Positions 8,237 to 51,669 of a stretch of 52,521 nt of DNA are shown piece after piece. The stretch comes from an uncultured Chitinophagales bacterium. Lineage in GTDB: Bacteria; Bacteroidota; Bacteroidia; Chitinophagales; JAHDHT01. The stretch spans positions 1 through 52,521 of the forward strand of contig CALHDG010000102.1 in NCBI GenBank assembly GCA_938023075.1, in the 5' to 3' direction. The translations under genes were made by a program, and so were the position numbers. The notes under the pieces are model-generated. The model had not been told where the DNA came from, did not search any database, and was given only the letters and a program-made list of their open reading frames with translations. Every line of letters begins with the position of its first letter. Position 1 is the first letter of the stretch.

Positions 8237-8393
8237 GGAATGATGAGAATATAAATGTTCAAATTTTAGCGAAGAGATTTTTCGATATACGAGGCAAAAA
8301 TCACAATCTTAGTAGGGCTAAGAAGAGTATTTTTAACAAAGTAGATCGGAAAATCTCAAAGTTAAAAATGGACAGTTATTTTTGAATTGTTCC
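8237..8393. mobile_element. Family A fold-back MITE, copy 1 (157 bp)
   Basis: Begins GGAATGATGAGAA and ends TTGAATTGTTCC, flanked by TAA on both sides (8234-8236 and 8394-8396), which reads as a 3-bp target duplication. The whole element is an imperfect palindrome whose apex is CTTAG-N5-CTAAG. It encodes nothing. Other copies have the same length. Confidence 0.85.
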
Positions 8394-10530: not shown

Positions 10531-10650
10531 TAATAAACTCTCCAATTGTTTTAGCAACTTGTCCGATTGCATTAAAAAAATCTGCATTATCACATACTTC
10601 CAAGAAGGTATGCAAATATTCAGTCTTCCGATTATGAGAAGATTTGCACC
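10526..10650 (-). pseudogene. Fragment of COG3636-type addiction-module antidote gene
   Basis: Reading the minus strand gives KTEYLHTFLEVCDNADFF followed by NAIGQVAKTIGEFITK and a stop supplied by the adjoining element end. This resembles the segment before the HTH in probable addiction-module antidote proteins (EYLxxxLEEGD...INAIGxIAKAIGM). The start and the DNA-binding half are missing. The 120-bp piece is sandwiched between a family B end and a family A copy, so insertion or recombination at both sides probably destroyed it. Assigned from memory of the family. Confidence 0.5.
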
Positions 10651-10655
10651 TCTAA

Positions 10656-10972
10656 GGTATAATTCAAAAATAACTGTCCATTTTTATCTTTGAGATTTTC
10701 CGATTTACTTCATTAAAAATACTCGTCTTAGCACCACTAAGGGATGGTGACAAAATAAATTACTCAAATTGGAGTAGATTATTTTTTTCCTGACGAGGCG
10801 AAAAACGCAGTCTTAGTAGCACTAAGACGAGGCTTTTCAACGAAGACAGGGAGAAAAAGAACTAATCTAAATGGGTAAGTTATTTATTCACAATCCCTAA
10901 GCCTGCGTTTTTTAACTTGTATATCAAAAAATCTCTTTGCTAAAATTTGAACATTTATTTTTTCATCATTCC
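10656..10972. mobile_element. Family A MITE, copy 2, interrupted by copy 3
   Basis: Starts GGTATAATTCAAAAATAAC and ends TTTTTTCATCATTCC, with TAA on both flanks (10653-10655, 10973-10975). It is split at its apex by another family A element. Removing that 157-bp insert and one 3-bp duplication leaves exactly 157 bp. Confidence 0.85.
10741..10897. mobile_element. Family A MITE, copy 3, nested inside copy 2 (157 bp)
   Basis: Starts GGGATGGTGACAAAATAAA and ends TTATTTATTCACAATCCC. TAA at 10738-10740 and 10898-10900 flanks it; both come from the CTAAG half of the host element's apex. Internal sequence carries the CTTAG-N5-CTAAG apex of its own. Confidence 0.88.
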
Positions 10973-11005
10973 TAATCAAAACAAGTTACTTTAAAAGCAA
11001 ATGCC

Positions 11006-13189
11006 CTACAGTTTCGTTCTACTACTTTGCAATGCCTCAACAAACGGCTGCTTATACAATCGCTGACCCGTCGCTTTATAAATAGCATTGGCAATAGCAC
11101 CGCCTGCAGGCGGAAGTGAGGGTTCGCCTAAACCAGTTGGGCTAGCATCGCTTTGTACAAAATGCACCTCAATTTCGGGGGCTTCCATATTTCTAATTAA
11201 ACGATATTGATGGAAATTGGCAGCAGAAGGTTTACCTTCATCAAAGCTAAAATTACCAAACATAGCGTGACCAATACCGTCAACTATGCCTCCTTCAACT
11301 TGATTTTTGGCTGCTAAAGGATTCACTACTATGCCACAATCTACCGCACAAATCACTTTCAATATCTGCGGCATATCATCCACCATTTGAAGGTGGGCAA
11401 TTTCTGCCACATGCGTATTATGAGAATAATAGGCACTAAAGCCTTGGTAAATTCCATCTGCCAAGTTTTGATTCCATTGTCCTTTTTCAGCAACTAAACG
11501 GATTACATTCTGCATCCGTTCTGGCGAATATTCAATCGCTTCATCTTTAGCTGCAACCGGTTTGGCTTGCTCTAACAAATCTAAGCGAAGTTGAACGGCA
11601 TCCACATTGAGTTTTTCGGCTAACTCATCAAAAAAGTGTTGCTCTGCAAATGCAAGAAAATTAGTGTACGGCGCACGCCAAGCTCCTGTGGTAATATTGC
11701 TTTCTAATAAATGTAAATCTACCTGATAATTGGGTATCGCTCCTGCAGGAAAGAAATGTGGTATCAATCCAAACATATTTCTATTAACAGCAACTTCTTT
11801 TAAGTGATATCCTGTAATCGCTCCGTTTTTAAGAGAAGCTTTTATTCTATATTTTGAAGCAGGTCTATAAGTGCCTGCGGTCATATCATCTTCGCGGGTA
11901 AATTGCAGTTGAATGGGCGCATTGACCAATTGAGATATTTGAGCAGCTTCGGTAGCGAAGTCACCATATAAACGTCTGCCAAATCCACCACCCATTCGAG
12001 ACATACCGACACTTACATTTTCGGGTTTTAAGCCCAATTGTTCAGCTACGGTATCTTGTGTCCATTTTGGGGTTTGAATGGGTCCGTATAAGTCGGCTTT
12101 ATCGTTTTGTACGTGGGCGAAAAAGTTCATGGGTTCTAAACAGTTGTGCGGTAGAAAAGGGGCTTCATATAAACGCTCAATCACTTCATCGGCTTCCGCA
12201 AAGGCTTGTTCAATATTGCCATCTTTTCTTGGCGACTCTTTTGGTTCGGTATCCAACAAGGCTTTCATAGCCTCATCATGTTTTGGAGTACTTTCTGCAT
12301 TTTCAGCAACACTCCATTTGGCTTTTAGAACTCGTTTACCTTTTATAGCCGCCCAAGTAGACGTGGCGACTATCGCTATTTTATTATTTAGTATATTTTC
12401 TTTTTCATCACCACCAAAGGCAATCACTTCTTTTACGCCATTTATTGCTTTGGCTTCAGTATCATCAAAAGATGCCAAGGTTTGCCCAAATGCAGGCGGA
12501 CGCAAAGCTGTTGCATACAACATCCCTTCTCTTTTTGTATCAATACCAAACAAGGGTTTTCCCGTAATGATTGCTTTTATATCAATATTACCTCTTTCCG
12601 TTCCAATAATAGTAAACTCAGCAGGGTCTTTTAGCTTTACGTTTTCTGGCACTTCAAGGCTAGCCGCAATAGAAGCCAACTCACCATAAGTTAAGCTATT
12701 GCCATTGGCATCTTTTACCAACCCTTTTAAGGCGGTACAATTTGCCGGATCAATTTTCCATTGTTGAGCGGCTGCATTAATTAGCATTTGTTTTGCCGTT
12801 GCTCCTGCCTTGCGCAAACTGTCCCAACCTTTTCTAATGGATTGACTGCCACCTGCTACCTGCCTGTCAAAGTCGTTTGATAAAGGCGATTGTTCAACTG
12901 TTACCCTATTCCAATCCACGTCTAATTCCTCAGCAACAATCATCGGCATACTGGTTTTTACATTCTGCCCAATTTCTGGATTGGGTGACATAATAGTGAC
13001 CATACCATTCTCCGCAATTTTTAAAAAGGCGTTAATAGTATGCCATTCCTTTGGTAATTGATTCAGCGTTTCAATTTTAGTTAAGCTGCCATAGCTCATC
13101 CAATTAAAACCCAATATCAAACCAGAACCGGTTAAAGCGGTTTTCTTAAAAAAAGATCGTCTATTTATATTGTTATCTACTAATTTCAT
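11006..13189 (-). CDS. Molybdenum-cofactor oxidoreductase large subunit (IorB/xanthine dehydrogenase family)
   Basis: Large molybdopterin-binding subunit of an aldehyde oxidase/isoquinoline 1-oxidoreductase-type enzyme, 728 aa. The start at 13189 exposes a Tat signal, NNINRRSFFKKTALTGSG. Later motifs include VAEELDVDWNRVTVEQSP, the Mo-binding MGGGFGRRLYGDF, GAWRAPYTNF and the C-terminal GLGEPSLPPAGGAIANAI, where the Glu is the expected catalytic base. It follows the 2Fe-2S subunit by 25 bp. Substrate (aldehyde, N-heterocycle) cannot be read from sequence. The Tat signal suggests a periplasmic enzyme receiving electrons into a cytochrome. Confidence 0.88.
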   Translation of the reverse strand: MKLVDNNINRRSFFKKTALTGSGLILGFNWMSYGSLTKIETLNQLPKEWHTINAFLKIAENGMVTIMSPNPEIGQNVKTSMPMIVAEELDVDWNRVTVEQSPLSNDFDRQVAGGSQSIRKGWDSLRKAGATAKQMLINAAAQQWKIDPANCTALKGLVKDANGNSLTYGELASIAASLEVPENVKLKDPAEFTIIGTERGNIDIKAIITGKPLFGIDTKREGMLYATALRPPAFGQTLASFDDTEAKAINGVKEVIAFGGDEKENILNNKIAIVATSTWAAIKGKRVLKAKWSVAENAESTPKHDEAMKALLDTEPKESPRKDGNIEQAFAEADEVIERLYEAPFLPHNCLEPMNFFAHVQNDKADLYGPIQTPKWTQDTVAEQLGLKPENVSVGMSRMGGGFGRRLYGDFATEAAQISQLVNAPIQLQFTREDDMTAGTYRPASKYRIKASLKNGAITGYHLKEVAVNRNMFGLIPHFFPAGAIPNYQVDLHLLESNITTGAWRAPYTNFLAFAEQHFFDELAEKLNVDAVQLRLDLLEQAKPVAAKDEAIEYSPERMQNVIRLVAEKGQWNQNLADGIYQGFSAYYSHNTHVAEIAHLQMVDDMPQILKVICAVDCGIVVNPLAAKNQVEGGIVDGIGHAMFGNFSFDEGKPSAANFHQYRLIRNMEAPEIEVHFVQSDASPTGLGEPSLPPAGGAIANAIYKATGQRLYKQPFVEALQSSRTKL

Positions 13190-19274: not shown

Positions 19275-22175
19275 TTATCTTAACAGCGTAATGTTTCCTT
19301 TTTCATAAAAAGGTTCATCAAAATAGGTGATACCAACTGCATAAAACATATATACCCCAGCATCTTGTGGAACGCCATTATAGGTGCCATCCCAAGAACT
19401 TTCAACGTTATTGGTTTCATATACTTTTTCGCCCCAACGGTTGTAAATTCTAAACACGTCCAAATCTTTCACTCCTCTAGTAGCAATTCCAATACCATCA
19501 TTTATACCATCGTTATTTGGGGTAAAAGCTGTGGGTATCCATAGGTTAAACTTTTGATCAACGGTTACCATTAATGAATCTGAAGCCGTACATCCGTTAT
19601 CAGCAATGGCAATTAATTGATAGGTCATATCACGTAAAGGCTGTGCAGCAGGTGTTAAGTTATTGGTGCTGCCGATTAAGTCAATTTGTGGTGTCCAAAA
19701 ATATTCGGTAACCCCAAAAGTATCAATTTCTCCATTAAATTGAATAATATCACCAATATCAATATCAAAGTTCCAACCGGCATCTACCCAAGGTAATTCT
19801 TTTACCTCCACATCAATTTCAGCAATAGTGGTATAACAATGATTAGAGATTTCAACTGTAAAAATTTCGTCGTCAGATAAAATGATAACCGGTTTAGAAG
19901 CATCCGTATCAAACCCTAAGTTAGGCGACCAATTATAAAAATCACCGCCAGAGGCGTTTAGCTGAAACGGTGTGTTTTTGCAAACTAAAGTATCGCTACT
20001 TACAATGGCTTCTATCGGTTCTTCAACTTCAATTATTAAAGAATCGATTATCTCGCAACCATAAGTTGTATCAATTACTTTTAAAATATAAGTAGCCGTT
20101 TCAAAAGGAACAACGGTTGGATTGACTATAACCAATGAAGATAAATAATCGTTCGGTTGCCATCTATATTGTAACGTATTGGTATTTCCATAAGCAGCTT
20201 CAGCTATAATATTTAAGTTGATGTTATCGGCTTCACAAGCCATCAAGTCTTCACCCATCTCTAACGTAGGAGATGGTCTTACATGAACATCAACTTTATC
20301 TTGTGCTACACAGCCATTAGGATCTTGTACATATAGGGTATAAGTAGTGGTTTCTTCAGGAAAAACTGTTGGATTTTCAATATCTAAACGGCTTATTTTT
20401 GTAGTATCCGTAGATAGCCAACTATAGCTAACCGGAATATTAACCGCACTGCTTAGCTTTACCGAATCACCCATACAAATATTGTGGTCTTCGCCAACAT
20501 TCAATTCAATCTCTTCATATATAGTAATCGATTCAGTTTTAACGGCTTTACAACCATTATTTGCGGTTACTTCCAAATAAACATTATAGTCTCCTGGTTC
20601 CGGAAATTCATGTTCTATATTTTTATCGGTATATATTTTAGAAATGGTACTATCGGCATTGTACAAAACCCAGTTCCAATTTTCTATGCCGCCTATATCA
20701 ATATCAGATGAATCGGAAAACTCAACAGGCTGTGCATCTAAACATAAAGCCGTATTGCCATAGTTCGATTCTGGCGTGGCTTTCAAATCAATACTTTCAT
20801 TATGAACTGCTACACAACCCAATTCGGTTTTAATACTTAAGGTAACATTATACCTACCCGGTTTATCATATTTTTTTGTGGGATTGGTTTCATTAGATAT
20901 GGATAGCGAATCATCTCCAAAATCCCATATCCATTCGGTTACTATTCCATAATCTGAAGTACTAATATCGGTAAACTGAACGGGCGTGGTAAAACAATTG
21001 GCATCGTACCTAAATTGTGGTATTAGAGTTGGATACAAACTCAACTCAACAATAGCAGTGTCACTGCATTCAAAATCAGGATCGGCTACCAGCATAATAG
21101 TATAAACACCCGTATCTGGATATTCGTGAATAGGATCTTTTAAAGTAGAGGTATTGTATGGAGAAGCCGGGTCGCCAAAATCCCAATAATAAGAGTCGGC
21201 TCCGACACTTTCATTCTCAAATTGTACATCAAAGCCTTCACAATCTTTGATGATAAAAATACCTTCCTGTGTTATATCGTCTGATTTTACATTGGCTTTT
21301 ACAATGCCACAATCAGAAATATTAAATTGAAAATCTCTTACTGAGGTGCTAAGCAATTGATTATTTCTAAATTCTTTTACACAAATGCCTACCACAAATT
21401 GCCCAACCATATCAGGAAAACCGGTTAGCTTGCCAGACACAGGATCTATATTTAGGGGAAACATATTTCCTCCTATCTGATCATCTTCACCGAAACCCTC
21501 CTCCCATGTAATAGGCTGATAGGGTGGCTTTGAAGCAACAATTGGTTGTGGGTCTTGCGGGTTGGCTCCTCTGTAAGGCGTACACAATTCATAAACTAAC
21601 GAATCTCCGTCTAAATCAGTGGCAGAATTATCAAACTCTAAAGGAAAACCCGCACAAATTACAATAGGTGGAAAATTATCGAAAACCGGAGAATTATTGC
21701 AAATGGCTACACCGCTAGGTGGTATAACTACTTCATAAGTTGAACCGGTATCGCCTGGTTGAGTAATGTTGTTAATGGTATTATTACGGCAACAACGCTG
21801 ATACACTAATCGATAACCAGAATCAGAAGGAGGTAAGGTTATGTTTTTTCTATACCCTAAGGCTTTTTCGACACATACATCTGGCACAGTCTCTAAACAT
21901 AATCCTTCAATATTCGGACTTATTCTCTTTCTGCCGGTTAAATTCAATTCTTCACTTCTTAAAAAGTTATTATTTCCACCAAAAATGGTGATTGTTGCCG
22001 GGTCATCAAAATCGGCACACATCGTACAATTACAATCTCTGTAAATGGATAATTCTATCAAATAGTTGTTACCGCTCTCGCACTTATAAGATAACTCACC
22101 CCCTATTAGATGGTTGGCTTTAACATAGCCATTAGCAATAATCAGTATTGCAATTAAAGAATATAGTTTTTTCAA
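19275..22175 (-). CDS. Large PKD-domain protein with gliding-motility/T9SS type B sorting domain
   Basis: A 966-residue exported protein. Residues 1-20 are a signal peptide (cleavage near VKA/NHL); the mature start NHLIGGELSYKC is common in such proteins. Several PKD-like beta-sandwich domains occur in residues 300-560 (YYWDFGDPAS, WIWDFGDDS), then further Ig-like repeats with DGCxASDS-like ends. The final 85 residues contain IPTAFTPNNDGINDGIGI, YNRWGEKVYE and GVYMFYAVGITYFD, the type B sorting domain. Many cysteines suggest disulfides. Probably a surface adhesin or matrix protein. Confidence 0.92.
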   Translation of the reverse strand: MKKLYSLIAILIIANGYVKANHLIGGELSYKCESGNNYLIELSIYRDCNCTMCADFDDPATITIFGGNNNFLRSEELNLTGRKRISPNIEGLCLETVPDVCVEKALGYRKNITLPPSDSGYRLVYQRCCRNNTINNITQPGDTGSTYEVVIPPSGVAICNNSPVFDNFPPIVICAGFPLEFDNSATDLDGDSLVYELCTPYRGANPQDPQPIVASKPPYQPITWEEGFGEDDQIGGNMFPLNIDPVSGKLTGFPDMVGQFVVGICVKEFRNNQLLSTSVRDFQFNISDCGIVKANVKSDDITQEGIFIIKDCEGFDVQFENESVGADSYYWDFGDPASPYNTSTLKDPIHEYPDTGVYTIMLVADPDFECSDTAIVELSLYPTLIPQFRYDANCFTTPVQFTDISTSDYGIVTEWIWDFGDDSLSISNETNPTKKYDKPGRYNVTLSIKTELGCVAVHNESIDLKATPESNYGNTALCLDAQPVEFSDSSDIDIGGIENWNWVLYNADSTISKIYTDKNIEHEFPEPGDYNVYLEVTANNGCKAVKTESITIYEEIELNVGEDHNICMGDSVKLSSAVNIPVSYSWLSTDTTKISRLDIENPTVFPEETTTYTLYVQDPNGCVAQDKVDVHVRPSPTLEMGEDLMACEADNINLNIIAEAAYGNTNTLQYRWQPNDYLSSLVIVNPTVVPFETATYILKVIDTTYGCEIIDSLIIEVEEPIEAIVSSDTLVCKNTPFQLNASGGDFYNWSPNLGFDTDASKPVIILSDDEIFTVEISNHCYTTIAEIDVEVKELPWVDAGWNFDIDIGDIIQFNGEIDTFGVTEYFWTPQIDLIGSTNNLTPAAQPLRDMTYQLIAIADNGCTASDSLMVTVDQKFNLWIPTAFTPNNDGINDGIGIATRGVKDLDVFRIYNRWGEKVYETNNVESSWDGTYNGVPQDAGVYMFYAVGITYFDEPFYEKGNITLLR

Positions 22176-27423: not shown

Positions 27424-27579
27424 GGAACGATGAGAAAATAAATTTATCAACTCTGATAAAGTCATTTTTTGATAGACAAGTTTAAAAACGTAGGCTTAGT
27501 GGGTCTAAGACGAGGCTTTTCGAAGAAGTATATCGGAAAATGGTAAAGTCAGATGGTAAATTTATTTTTTTATCGTTCC
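27424..27579. mobile_element. Family A fold-back MITE, copy 4 (156 bp)
   Basis: The cleanest copy. It starts GGAACGATGAGAAAATAAA and ends with TAAATTTATTTTTTTATCGT plus TCC, so about 23 terminal bases pair with few mismatches. TAA flanks both sides (27421-27423, 27580-27582). Apex CTTAGTGGGTCTAAG. Confidence 0.9.
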
Positions 27580-43688: not shown

Positions 43689-43850
43689 TACCAAATTGAC
43701 CATAAAATGTAACACAAATTTCGGTTTAATATTGGCGATCTCTTCGTTAAAAATACTCGCCATAGCTGATGGTTATGTCTGCGTTTTTTGCCTTGAGCTC
43801 ACCAAATTAATTCCAAAATTTCTGTGTCGCTTTTTAAAGTCAAATTGGTA
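43689..43850. mobile_element. Family B fold-back element, complete copy (162 bp)
   Basis: TACCAAATTGACC at the left pairs with GTCAAATTGGTA at the right; TAA flanks both sides (43686-43688 and 43851-43853). The interior holds CGTTAAAAATACTCGCC and TCTGCGTTTTTTGCCTTG, shared with family A. Confidence 0.9.
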
Positions 43851-43882: not shown

Positions 43883-44215
43883 AACAAGTTTATCAAAGTA
43901 GTTGATACTTTCTTATTTTAGATTGTCTCTGTTTTTTTCTTCTCGGCGAGATTTGCAATCTCGCCGCATTTTCAATAATTACAACCAAAACAAGCATTTG
44001 TAATGCGACATTTTTGCCAACAACTTTTATAGAATCATCTCTTTCAGAAACGAAAGTTTTGCAAAGGCAAGCTGCCAACGAAGCAGCAAAGTCACCAATC
44101 TAAACCCGATTGCAGCGGTATCCTTTTTGTAGAACGGAGTGGAACAAAAAGATTTAGCGGAAAGCGGGACTTCCCTTTCAACGAAGCAAAGGGTTCGTTT
44201 TCTAATTAAGAATAC
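43883..44215 (-). repeat. Family H element (copy 6) interrupted by family J (copy 1)
   Basis: AACAAGTTTATCAAAGTAG at 43883 is the H outer end. A perfect hairpin with arms GGCGAGATT/AATCTCGCC (43945-43965) and then AAGCATTTGTAATGCGAC (to 44009) form family J inside it. The H core follows (44104-44170): CCGATTGCAGCGGTATCC, arms CTTTTTGT/ACAAAAAG, and TTTAGCGGAAAGCGGGA. Confidence 0.85.
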
Positions 44216-44311: not shown

Positions 44312-44467
44312 GGAATGAGAAAAAAATAAATTTACATGCTGACTTTGCAATTTTCTGATATACTTCGTTGAAAAGCCTCGTCTTAGCCCCACTATGACTA
44401 CGTTTTTCGCCTCGTCTATCAAAAAAATGCTTTATCATAGATGGTAAATTTATTTTCTCATCATTCC
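44312..44467. mobile_element. Family A fold-back MITE, copy 5 (156 bp)
   Basis: GGAATGAGAAAAAAATAAAT at the left, ATTTATTTTCTCATCATTCC at the right, flanked by TTT on both sides (44309-44311 and 44468-44470). So the 3-bp target duplication need not be TAA. Confidence 0.88.
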
Positions 44468-46064: not shown

Positions 46065-46215
46065 TGTTTTTTAGAAGCTAAACACTCAACAACTAAAAAA
46101 CACCCGTCCCGCTTTCCGTTCCAATCTTTTTGTTCCGCTCTGCTCCACAAAAAGGATTTCCTCTGCAATCGGGGCTATTTTGGAGGCTTCGTGCTTCGTT
46201 GCAAAGGCTTTTTTT
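46065..46215 (+). repeat. Family H element, copy 7
   Basis: TTTAGAAGCTAAAC, CCCGTCCCGCTTTCCGTTCC, arm AATCTTTTTGT, loop TCCGCTCTGCTCC, partner ACAAAAAGGAT, TTCCTCTGCAATCGGGGCTA and GTGCTTCGTTGC. It has the CTTTTTGT arm type, shared only with copies at 44.1, 47.5 and 48.3 kb. Confidence 0.9.
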
Positions 46216-47352: not shown

Positions 47353-47585
47353 ACTCTCGGCGAGATTTGCAATCTCGCCGCAACTTTATTTAAAAAACCA
47401 AAGCCAGCATTTGTAATGCGACCTGTTTAATACAAATCTACTAAAAAAAACGTTCAGCAAAAAACCAACAACGAAGCACCGAATCCACCAATCTAAACCC
47501 GATTGCAGCGGTATCCTTTTTGTGGAGCAGAGCGGAACAAAAAGATTTAGCGGAAAGCGGGACTACGCCAATAAAATGCAGGTTC
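47353..47585 (-). repeat. Composite J+H repeat, copy 2
   Basis: Family J hairpin arms GGCGAGATT/AATCTCGCC at 47359-47379, GCATTTGTAATGCGAC, an intermediate 75 bases, and an H core at 47496-47562 with arms CTTTTTGT/ACAAAAAG. It begins inside the amine-oxidase reading frame. Confidence 0.85.
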
Positions 47586-48198: not shown

Positions 48199-48425
48199 TT
48201 ACAACCAAAGCAAGCATTTGTAATGCGACATTATTGCCAATAACTTTTCCAGAATCACCTCTTTTTAAAATGAACGTTTCGCAAGCGCAAACTACCAACG
48301 AAGCAGCGAAGCCTCCAACCTAAACCCGATTGCAGCGGTATCCTTTTTGTGGAACGGAGTGGAACAAAAAGATTTAGCGGAAAGCGGGACTACCTTTTCA
48401 ACGAAGTAAATTGTTCGTTTTCTAA
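48187..48425 (-). repeat. Composite J+H repeat, copy 3
   Basis: CATTCTCAATAATTACAACC, AAGCATTTGTAATGCGACAT and an H core (48322-48390) repeat the order at 43966-44210 closely. The GCGAGA hairpin itself is missing here; the break lies at the toxin junction. Confidence 0.85.
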
Positions 48426-51171: not shown

Positions 51172-51669
51172 GTGAGAATACATCTGATTAAAGAAAAGAC
51201 AATTTATGAGTACATTACATCAAACCCGGAGGCAGAATCAGGTTTTAAGAATTGGCTAAAGATTATAAATGGTTCAACATGGCATTTGCCCTCTGATGTA
51301 CTGAAATCTTTCAATTCAGCTGATATACTTGGAAATGGAACAAAACGTGTTGTATTCAATATCGGTGGAAACAAACACCGGTGCATATGTACTGATACCA
51401 AATTGACCATAAAATGTAAGACAAATTTCGTTTTATTGTTGGCGATATTTTCGTTAAAAATACTCGCCGTAGCCGTTGGCTATGCCTGCGTTTTTTATCT
51501 CAATCTCAACAAAATAAATTCAAAATTTTAGTGTCACTTTTTATAATCAAATTGGTATTACTCATTTGGTAAAGCGTTTGTTCATTTGTTTATAAATTGG
51601 ATTGGAACTCACTTACAATATAATAAAATTTGTGATCAACAATTACAATACACAGTTTCAAAATATTGA
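51172..51669 (+). pseudogene. higB toxin gene interrupted by a family B element
   Basis: GTG start; RIHLIKEKTIYEYITS through KRVVFNIGGNKHRCICT follows HigB. A 162-bp element enters at 51396 and introduces an early stop near 51531. After the element the same frame resumes YSFGKAFVHLFINWIGTHLQ and YNKICDQQLQYTVSKY, stop at 51667-51669. Removing the element plus one 3-bp duplication restores the frame and gives 21 residues between NK and GTH, the same as in the intact higB at 46303. Confidence 0.88.
51396..51557. mobile_element. Family B fold-back element in higB, 162 bp
   Basis: TACCAAATTGACC at the left and ATCAAATTGGTA at the right are inverted. TGA (51393-51395) and TTA (51558-51560) flank it; a TTA duplication with one later substitution is the simplest reading. 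The length equals the copy at 43689-43850. Confidence 0.9.

Follow-up and report, generated by a model that had tools for sequence, protein, structure and literature searches.

Family A, a set of roughly 157-bp hairpin repeats dispersed through the genome of an uncultured Chitinophagales bacterium, is very probably a non-autonomous, fully palindromic, MITE-like DNA transposon that inserts at TWA with a 3-bp duplication and is presumably mobilized in trans by a DDE transposase. The family is apparently undescribed (a literature search of incomplete coverage returned no description of it) and recently active, has a clear insertion chemistry, and is present in about one-fifth of the genomes sampled from a single order. 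The window analyzed here is the whole of a 52,521-nucleotide contig (CALHDG010000102.1; C102 of a 6.12-Mb, 288-contig assembly), in which one copy is nested inside another; the order-wide, structure-conserved element family of the MITE kind is of more interest than the nesting.

Results

The nested pair occupies positions 10656-10972 of the window. The outer copy, on the minus strand, is split into 85 bp before the insertion (10656-10740) and 72 bp after it (10901-10972) and is flanked by TAA at 10653-10655 and 10973-10975. The inner copy (10741-10897, plus strand, 157 bp, GGGATGGTGAC subfamily) lies between TAA at 10738-10740 and TAA at 10898-10900, in a CAC-TAA-G site (hyphens set off the duplicated bases) of the outer apex, and its conserved, asymmetric apical core, GAGGCGAAAAACGCAG..CTTAG....CTAAG..CGAGGCTTTTCAACGAAG, spans 10795-10845 (plus strand). 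Removal of the inner 157 bp with one TAA leaves an outer copy of 85 + 72 = 157 bp, in agreement with the first-pass annotation, which had described a complete copy inserted into another and had taken this as transposition with a 3-bp duplication. An empty-site query was made from 60 bp on each side of the inner insertion, joined, minus one TAA (120 positions). It aligned without gaps over 120/120 positions to L222:16172-16053 (98.3%) and, again gapless over 120/120 positions, to more than 10 further uninterrupted copies elsewhere (92 to 97%), so the joined flanks represent a precise empty site, seen here among paralogous repeats rather than in the sister strains where the annotation had proposed to look. 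The inner and outer copies are of separate subfamilies, sharing 110 identical positions with 14 gap positions, and the outer copy is identical to the copy at 8237 at 137/157 positions. The inner copy is about 99% identical to G000:C5:5777-5934, which has different flanks and occupies an unrelated CTAA-..-TAAG site, and so close a twin at an unrelated site points to recent movement.

Coordinates, lengths, and matching direct flanks previously assigned to the other copies in the window also hold: 8237-8393 (plus strand, 157 bp, TAA), 27424-27579 (plus strand, 156 bp, TAA), and 44312-44467 (minus strand, 156 bp, atypical TTT). The copy at 27424 interrupts another interspersed repeat at CACTAAGTG, and that host repeat supplies gapless empty sites, with more than 20 uninterrupted matches. 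A gapless empty site was likewise obtained for L157:6842-6995, a family A copy inserted in a core of the related family C. Further nesting was found at L134:19703-19859 (inside 19620-19934), with partial cases at L149 and L179.

To count family A, 1.85 Mb of the genome, a sample in which contigs carrying copies are over-represented, was scanned with an iterated profile, and 104 near-full copies with both flanks were recovered. In 638 kb not picked for matches there were 13 near-full copies, which scales to roughly 125 genome-wide. Lengths do not vary freely: 100/104 copies measure 155 to 161 bp, most commonly 156 bp (n = 42) or 157 bp (n = 25). The elements are paired end to end, with terminal inverted repeats and no transposase open reading frame (ORF); the lack of an encoded transposase had already been noted for the window copies.

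The 3-bp flanks are identical in 71/104 copies (shuffles: mean, 29.4; maximum, 40), and four-base identity occurs in 0/104. About one-third of copies have no identical 3-bp flanks, although in roughly half of this group the mismatch is confined to a single base. Matching flanks are TTA (33), TAA (29), ATA (4), AAA (2), and three others (TCA, 1), so that TNA makes up 63/71. Were these bases part of an inverted repeat, TTA would face TAA; mixed TTA/TAA pairs are seen in five copies only, and the agreement of the flanks is therefore direct rather than inverted. The preference proposed earlier, for A/T targets, is not for A/T in general but for TWA. Within TWA, C-TWA-G is enriched: it is the context of 10/62 insertions at TWA but of 2.1% of all TWA sites in the DNA. 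As 62/71 duplications are TTA or TAA, the TTT/AAA site at 44312 is an exception. The 3-bp duplication also separates family A from REP/RAYT (tyrosine transposase) elements, which make no target duplication.

Several variant forms were observed in the same DNA. Palindromes of 54 to 69 bp with family A ends and no core lie at L145:2928-2981, L234:19535-19603, and L236:1876-1929, at least two of them with matching TTA flanks; they may be deletion products or mobile core-less forms. In a few copies (L177:3817-3976 and L134:9966-10123), the core is partly replaced by a small TCCCGAA.TTCGGGA hairpin. Family ends also occur singly, as stretches of about 20 bp, and in several cases sit just past gene stop codons (L157:7213, L165:1839, L209:3907, and L147:14382; in relatives, L331).

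Family C is represented in the window by an element at 43689-43850 (minus strand, 162 bp, ends TACCAAATT..AATTGGTA, TAA duplication) and another at 51396-51557 (minus strand), both with the same core as family A. Copies are mostly 162 bp, and the family A model matches them over their full length (E value, 8e-9); the core-to-core local score is 18, against a maximum of 15 in 2,000 shuffles. TAA or TTA duplications flank 5/7 perfect-ended copies, which is weak evidence on its own beside a shuffled mean of 3.2; in a looser set judged by eye, most copies have them. Families A and C differ in their ends but share one core and, apparently, one chemistry.

By nucleotide comparison, family A was seen only in the host genome among 41 searched. 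A covariance model built from 26 host copies found full-length matches (positions 1 to 157) in 84/398 genomes of the host's order, representing 47/165 genera, often with at least seven matches per genome and with E values down to 2.6e-22 in other genera; neither method found family A in the sole genome from the host's own taxonomic family. Hairpins in relatives are 157 to 162 bp long. Of 15 elements examined in 14 other genomes, 13 have identical 3-bp sequences abutting the two ends of the model match (TTA, 7; TAA, 5; TCA, 1), all TNA. The cross-genus alignment was made with MAFFT and was not fitted to the structure, and in it 93.9% of cells pair, with compensatory (double) changes in 32/46 pairs. 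Double-changed cells number 148, against 43 in shuffles and 23 to 36 with partners slid; the structure-aware search favors paired relatives and the structure was drawn from the same alignment, so the size of this covariation, not its existence, may be inflated.

Conservation is highest away from the termini: 1.75 bits in the AATAART box (columns 14 to 20), 1.65 in its partner, 1.5 in the A/T box, and 1.45 to 1.5 in the core halves GAGGCRAAAAACGYAGNCWTA and CTANGNCGAGGCTTTTYAACGMAG, against 1.0 bit per column in the terminal 13 columns and mostly 0.3 to 0.9 in the arm stretches between. The core motifs CGAGGC and ACG(Y/M)AG, read directly from the alignment, occur in the same order on either side of the loop and therefore lie opposite one another in the hairpin, giving internal mismatches that are conserved. 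The same type of element is thus spread over the host's order, its length, boxes, asymmetric core, and TNA duplication kept while the arms diverge and covary.

The first-pass annotation had suggested looking for an autonomous insertion sequence (IS) with the same GGAA..TTCC ends; none was found in the searched part of the genome. PF01609, PF13359, PF01610, and PF13586 were searched in the genome, whose assembly is broken at collapsed multi-copy IS, and no hit carries family A ends (PF13586 gave nothing above the cut-off). An IS1031-type transposase gene sharing the terminal repeats was likewise absent from the searched part of this assembly, which is incomplete at multi-copy IS. The end-pattern search was extended to three highly contiguous relatives: matches were near control level in G383, whereas G173, a genome in one contig, and G182 have real ends but no paired element of greater length within 1.5 kb. 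Plasmid and phage collections contained no match to family A, and a single viral-contig match to the core pattern was judged by eye to be chance. With no autonomous element carrying family A ends found, the partner and its family are inferred from the duplication and the target alone.

Individual candidates were rejected as follows. A multi-copy DDE_Tnp_4 (PF13359) IS with four identical ends at contig edges initially appeared to have ..TTCTCATTC-TTA in common with family A, but comparison of the four copies placed the true end at ..GGGTAACAAGTCT. These identical ends break four contigs (G000:C221:8320-8491, C155:37741-37858, C153:1-119, and C230:10202-10320), and this IS is recently active and collapsed in the assembly. 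On contig C33, an ISL3-type transposase end beside GGAATGAGAAAAAAATAAC belongs to an ISL3 element that has inserted into a family A copy (L229:6503-6661), some 19 bp in; the ISL3 ends, GGCTAATTCWTTTTTTGAGG, are known from relatives. The ISL3 element on contig C144 has its own GGTTCTACAAG ends, GGAATG ends are not paired around any of seven PF01609 places, and the solo family A ends in the 1.6 to 1.85 Mb examined are truncated copies beside ordinary genes, with no transposase.

Discussion

In the mechanism that we favor, a DDE transposase acting in trans, for which the IS5/IS1031 type is the likeliest source, would bind the ends of family A, perhaps through the conserved subterminal AATAART boxes, which are the best candidate binding sites. 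It would mobilize the element and cut C-TWA-G with a 3-nt stagger, leaving gaps that the host would fill. Selection would act on the apical core, either for a role in the transposition complex or as structured RNA or DNA, and both arms could change together if one arm were copied from its partner by fold-back.

An IS5-superfamily (IS5/IS1031-type) transposase acting in trans is our best guess for the mobilizer, with perhaps an even chance of being correct. The analogy is with the IS1031 subgroup of the IS5 family, which makes exclusively 3-bp TNA duplications (PMC12016507), and with eukaryotic PIF/Harbinger relatives, which duplicate TWA, NuwaII of the PHIS superfamily having a C-TNA-G target (PMC4482050). 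Family A resembles IS1031 in its 3-bp TNA duplication but lacks a transposase ORF, and its ends start with GG or GT, whereas the IS1031-group element ISLrh starts with GA; the genome, moreover, yielded no partner with family A ends and no PF13586 hit above the cut-off. PIF/Harbinger elements (Tourist-type MITEs) and NuwaII are eukaryotic and are like family A in target and duplication only.

Among bacterial elements, close parallels are MITEs such as ERIC, RUP, Correia, and MITEAba12, which are also short and palindromic, with no ORF, many intergenic copies, a target-site duplication, and presumed mobilization in trans. Family A differs in its 3-bp TWA duplication, its variable terminal sequence and conserved internal core, and its single length and architecture kept across 47 genera, with no partner IS known. 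In MITEs, the termini are usually better conserved than the interior. In family A the outermost 13 columns carry 1.0 bit per column and the inner core about 1.5, which counts against end-driven transposition and is unusual for an element moved through its terminal repeats only. This reversed pattern (variable ends, conserved middle, and covarying arms) makes it testable which part of the hairpin the transposase reads and how the arms change together.

One alternative, to which we give a minor but real share of belief, is that the mobilizer reads the hairpin itself (the apical core and boxes, as a cruciform or single-stranded) rather than the terminal sequence, with the arms renewed by fold-back copying; the ends could then diverge with no loss of structure, core, or length. 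Arms differ between subfamilies and genera, yet about 94% of cells pair; the core and boxes hold about 1.5 to 1.75 bits, against 0.3 to 1.0 in most of the arms; and family C has unrelated ends with the same core, a similar length, and the same duplication. Against hairpin recognition, there are short derivatives that lack the core but keep intact ends (L145:2928-2981, flanked flush by TTA, and L234:19535-19603), which are maybe post-insertion deletions, and the 3-bp duplication fits DDE chemistry, of which it is a classic product on double-stranded ends. A broader version, similarly tentative, would see an order-wide class of structure-defined mobile hairpins identified by their constant length, a pair of subterminal AATAA boxes, and an asymmetric apical core, the terminal sequence being free to vary provided that both arms pair; under it, the unrelated ends of families A and C, joined to the same core and TWA chemistry, would reflect recognition of hairpin DNA or of the core instead of classical terminal repeats.

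For the nesting, site preference is enough. The family A apex reads CTTAG....CTAAG and so offers one or two near-ideal CTWAG targets; of the 2,574 CTWAG sites in the DNA analyzed, 172 fall in family A apexes. A degree of self-nesting is therefore expected, and about 0.7 of the ten CTWAG insertions should fall in apexes from site preference alone (the counts are small, and the sample is enriched for contigs with copies). That the transposition machinery prefers hairpin tips, in the way that some IS prefer REP palindromes (PMC1525189), is unlikely. Several nested or hairpin-core insertions would fit it (10741 in the window, L134:19703-19859, L179, and L157:6842-6995 in a family C core), but they amount to about 4/104 insertions, numbers too small for a second rule to be needed beside the 0.7 expected. 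The REP case is alike in having a palindromic repeat as the target of IS elements (PMC1525189) and differs in that here the inserting element and its target are of the same family. The nested insertion is an ordinary consequence of target preference.

It is less likely still that family A serves mainly as a structured RNA gene or a regulatory hairpin, with dispersal a side effect. Strong covariation across genera and the conserved internal mismatches in the core would suit an RNA, and the host genome also carries many copies of the Flavo-1 RNA. However, no Rfam family matches family A above threshold, the duplications and empty sites indicate that the unit itself moves, and some 100 copies scattered through a single genome are what a transposon typically leaves. 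Flavo-1 (RF01705) is, like family A, a multi-copy structured repeat of this genome but differs in sequence and fold; its covariance model has no match at 10600-11050 and matches elsewhere in the window.

An origin of the nesting without transposition, through two copies recombining or slipping during replication, is scarcely credible: the pair does consist of related palindromes, a kind of sequence prone to rearrangement, but a complete 157-bp unit lies between exact TAA duplications, the empty site is gapless in more than 10 paralogs, the two copies come from different subfamilies, and the 99% identical twin of the inner unit sits elsewhere.

Two further features of the window concern other repeats. 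Four Flavo-1 RNAs (44098-44175, 46101-46180, 47491-47568, and 48318-48395) are embedded in family B, a longer interspersed repeat of which there are about 99 long copies in 1.85 Mb and whose head is shared by the family E repeat; it may be that Flavo-1, too, travels within a mobile repeat. At positions 60-218, a 63-bp direct repeat is present in two copies 96 bp apart (75% identical).
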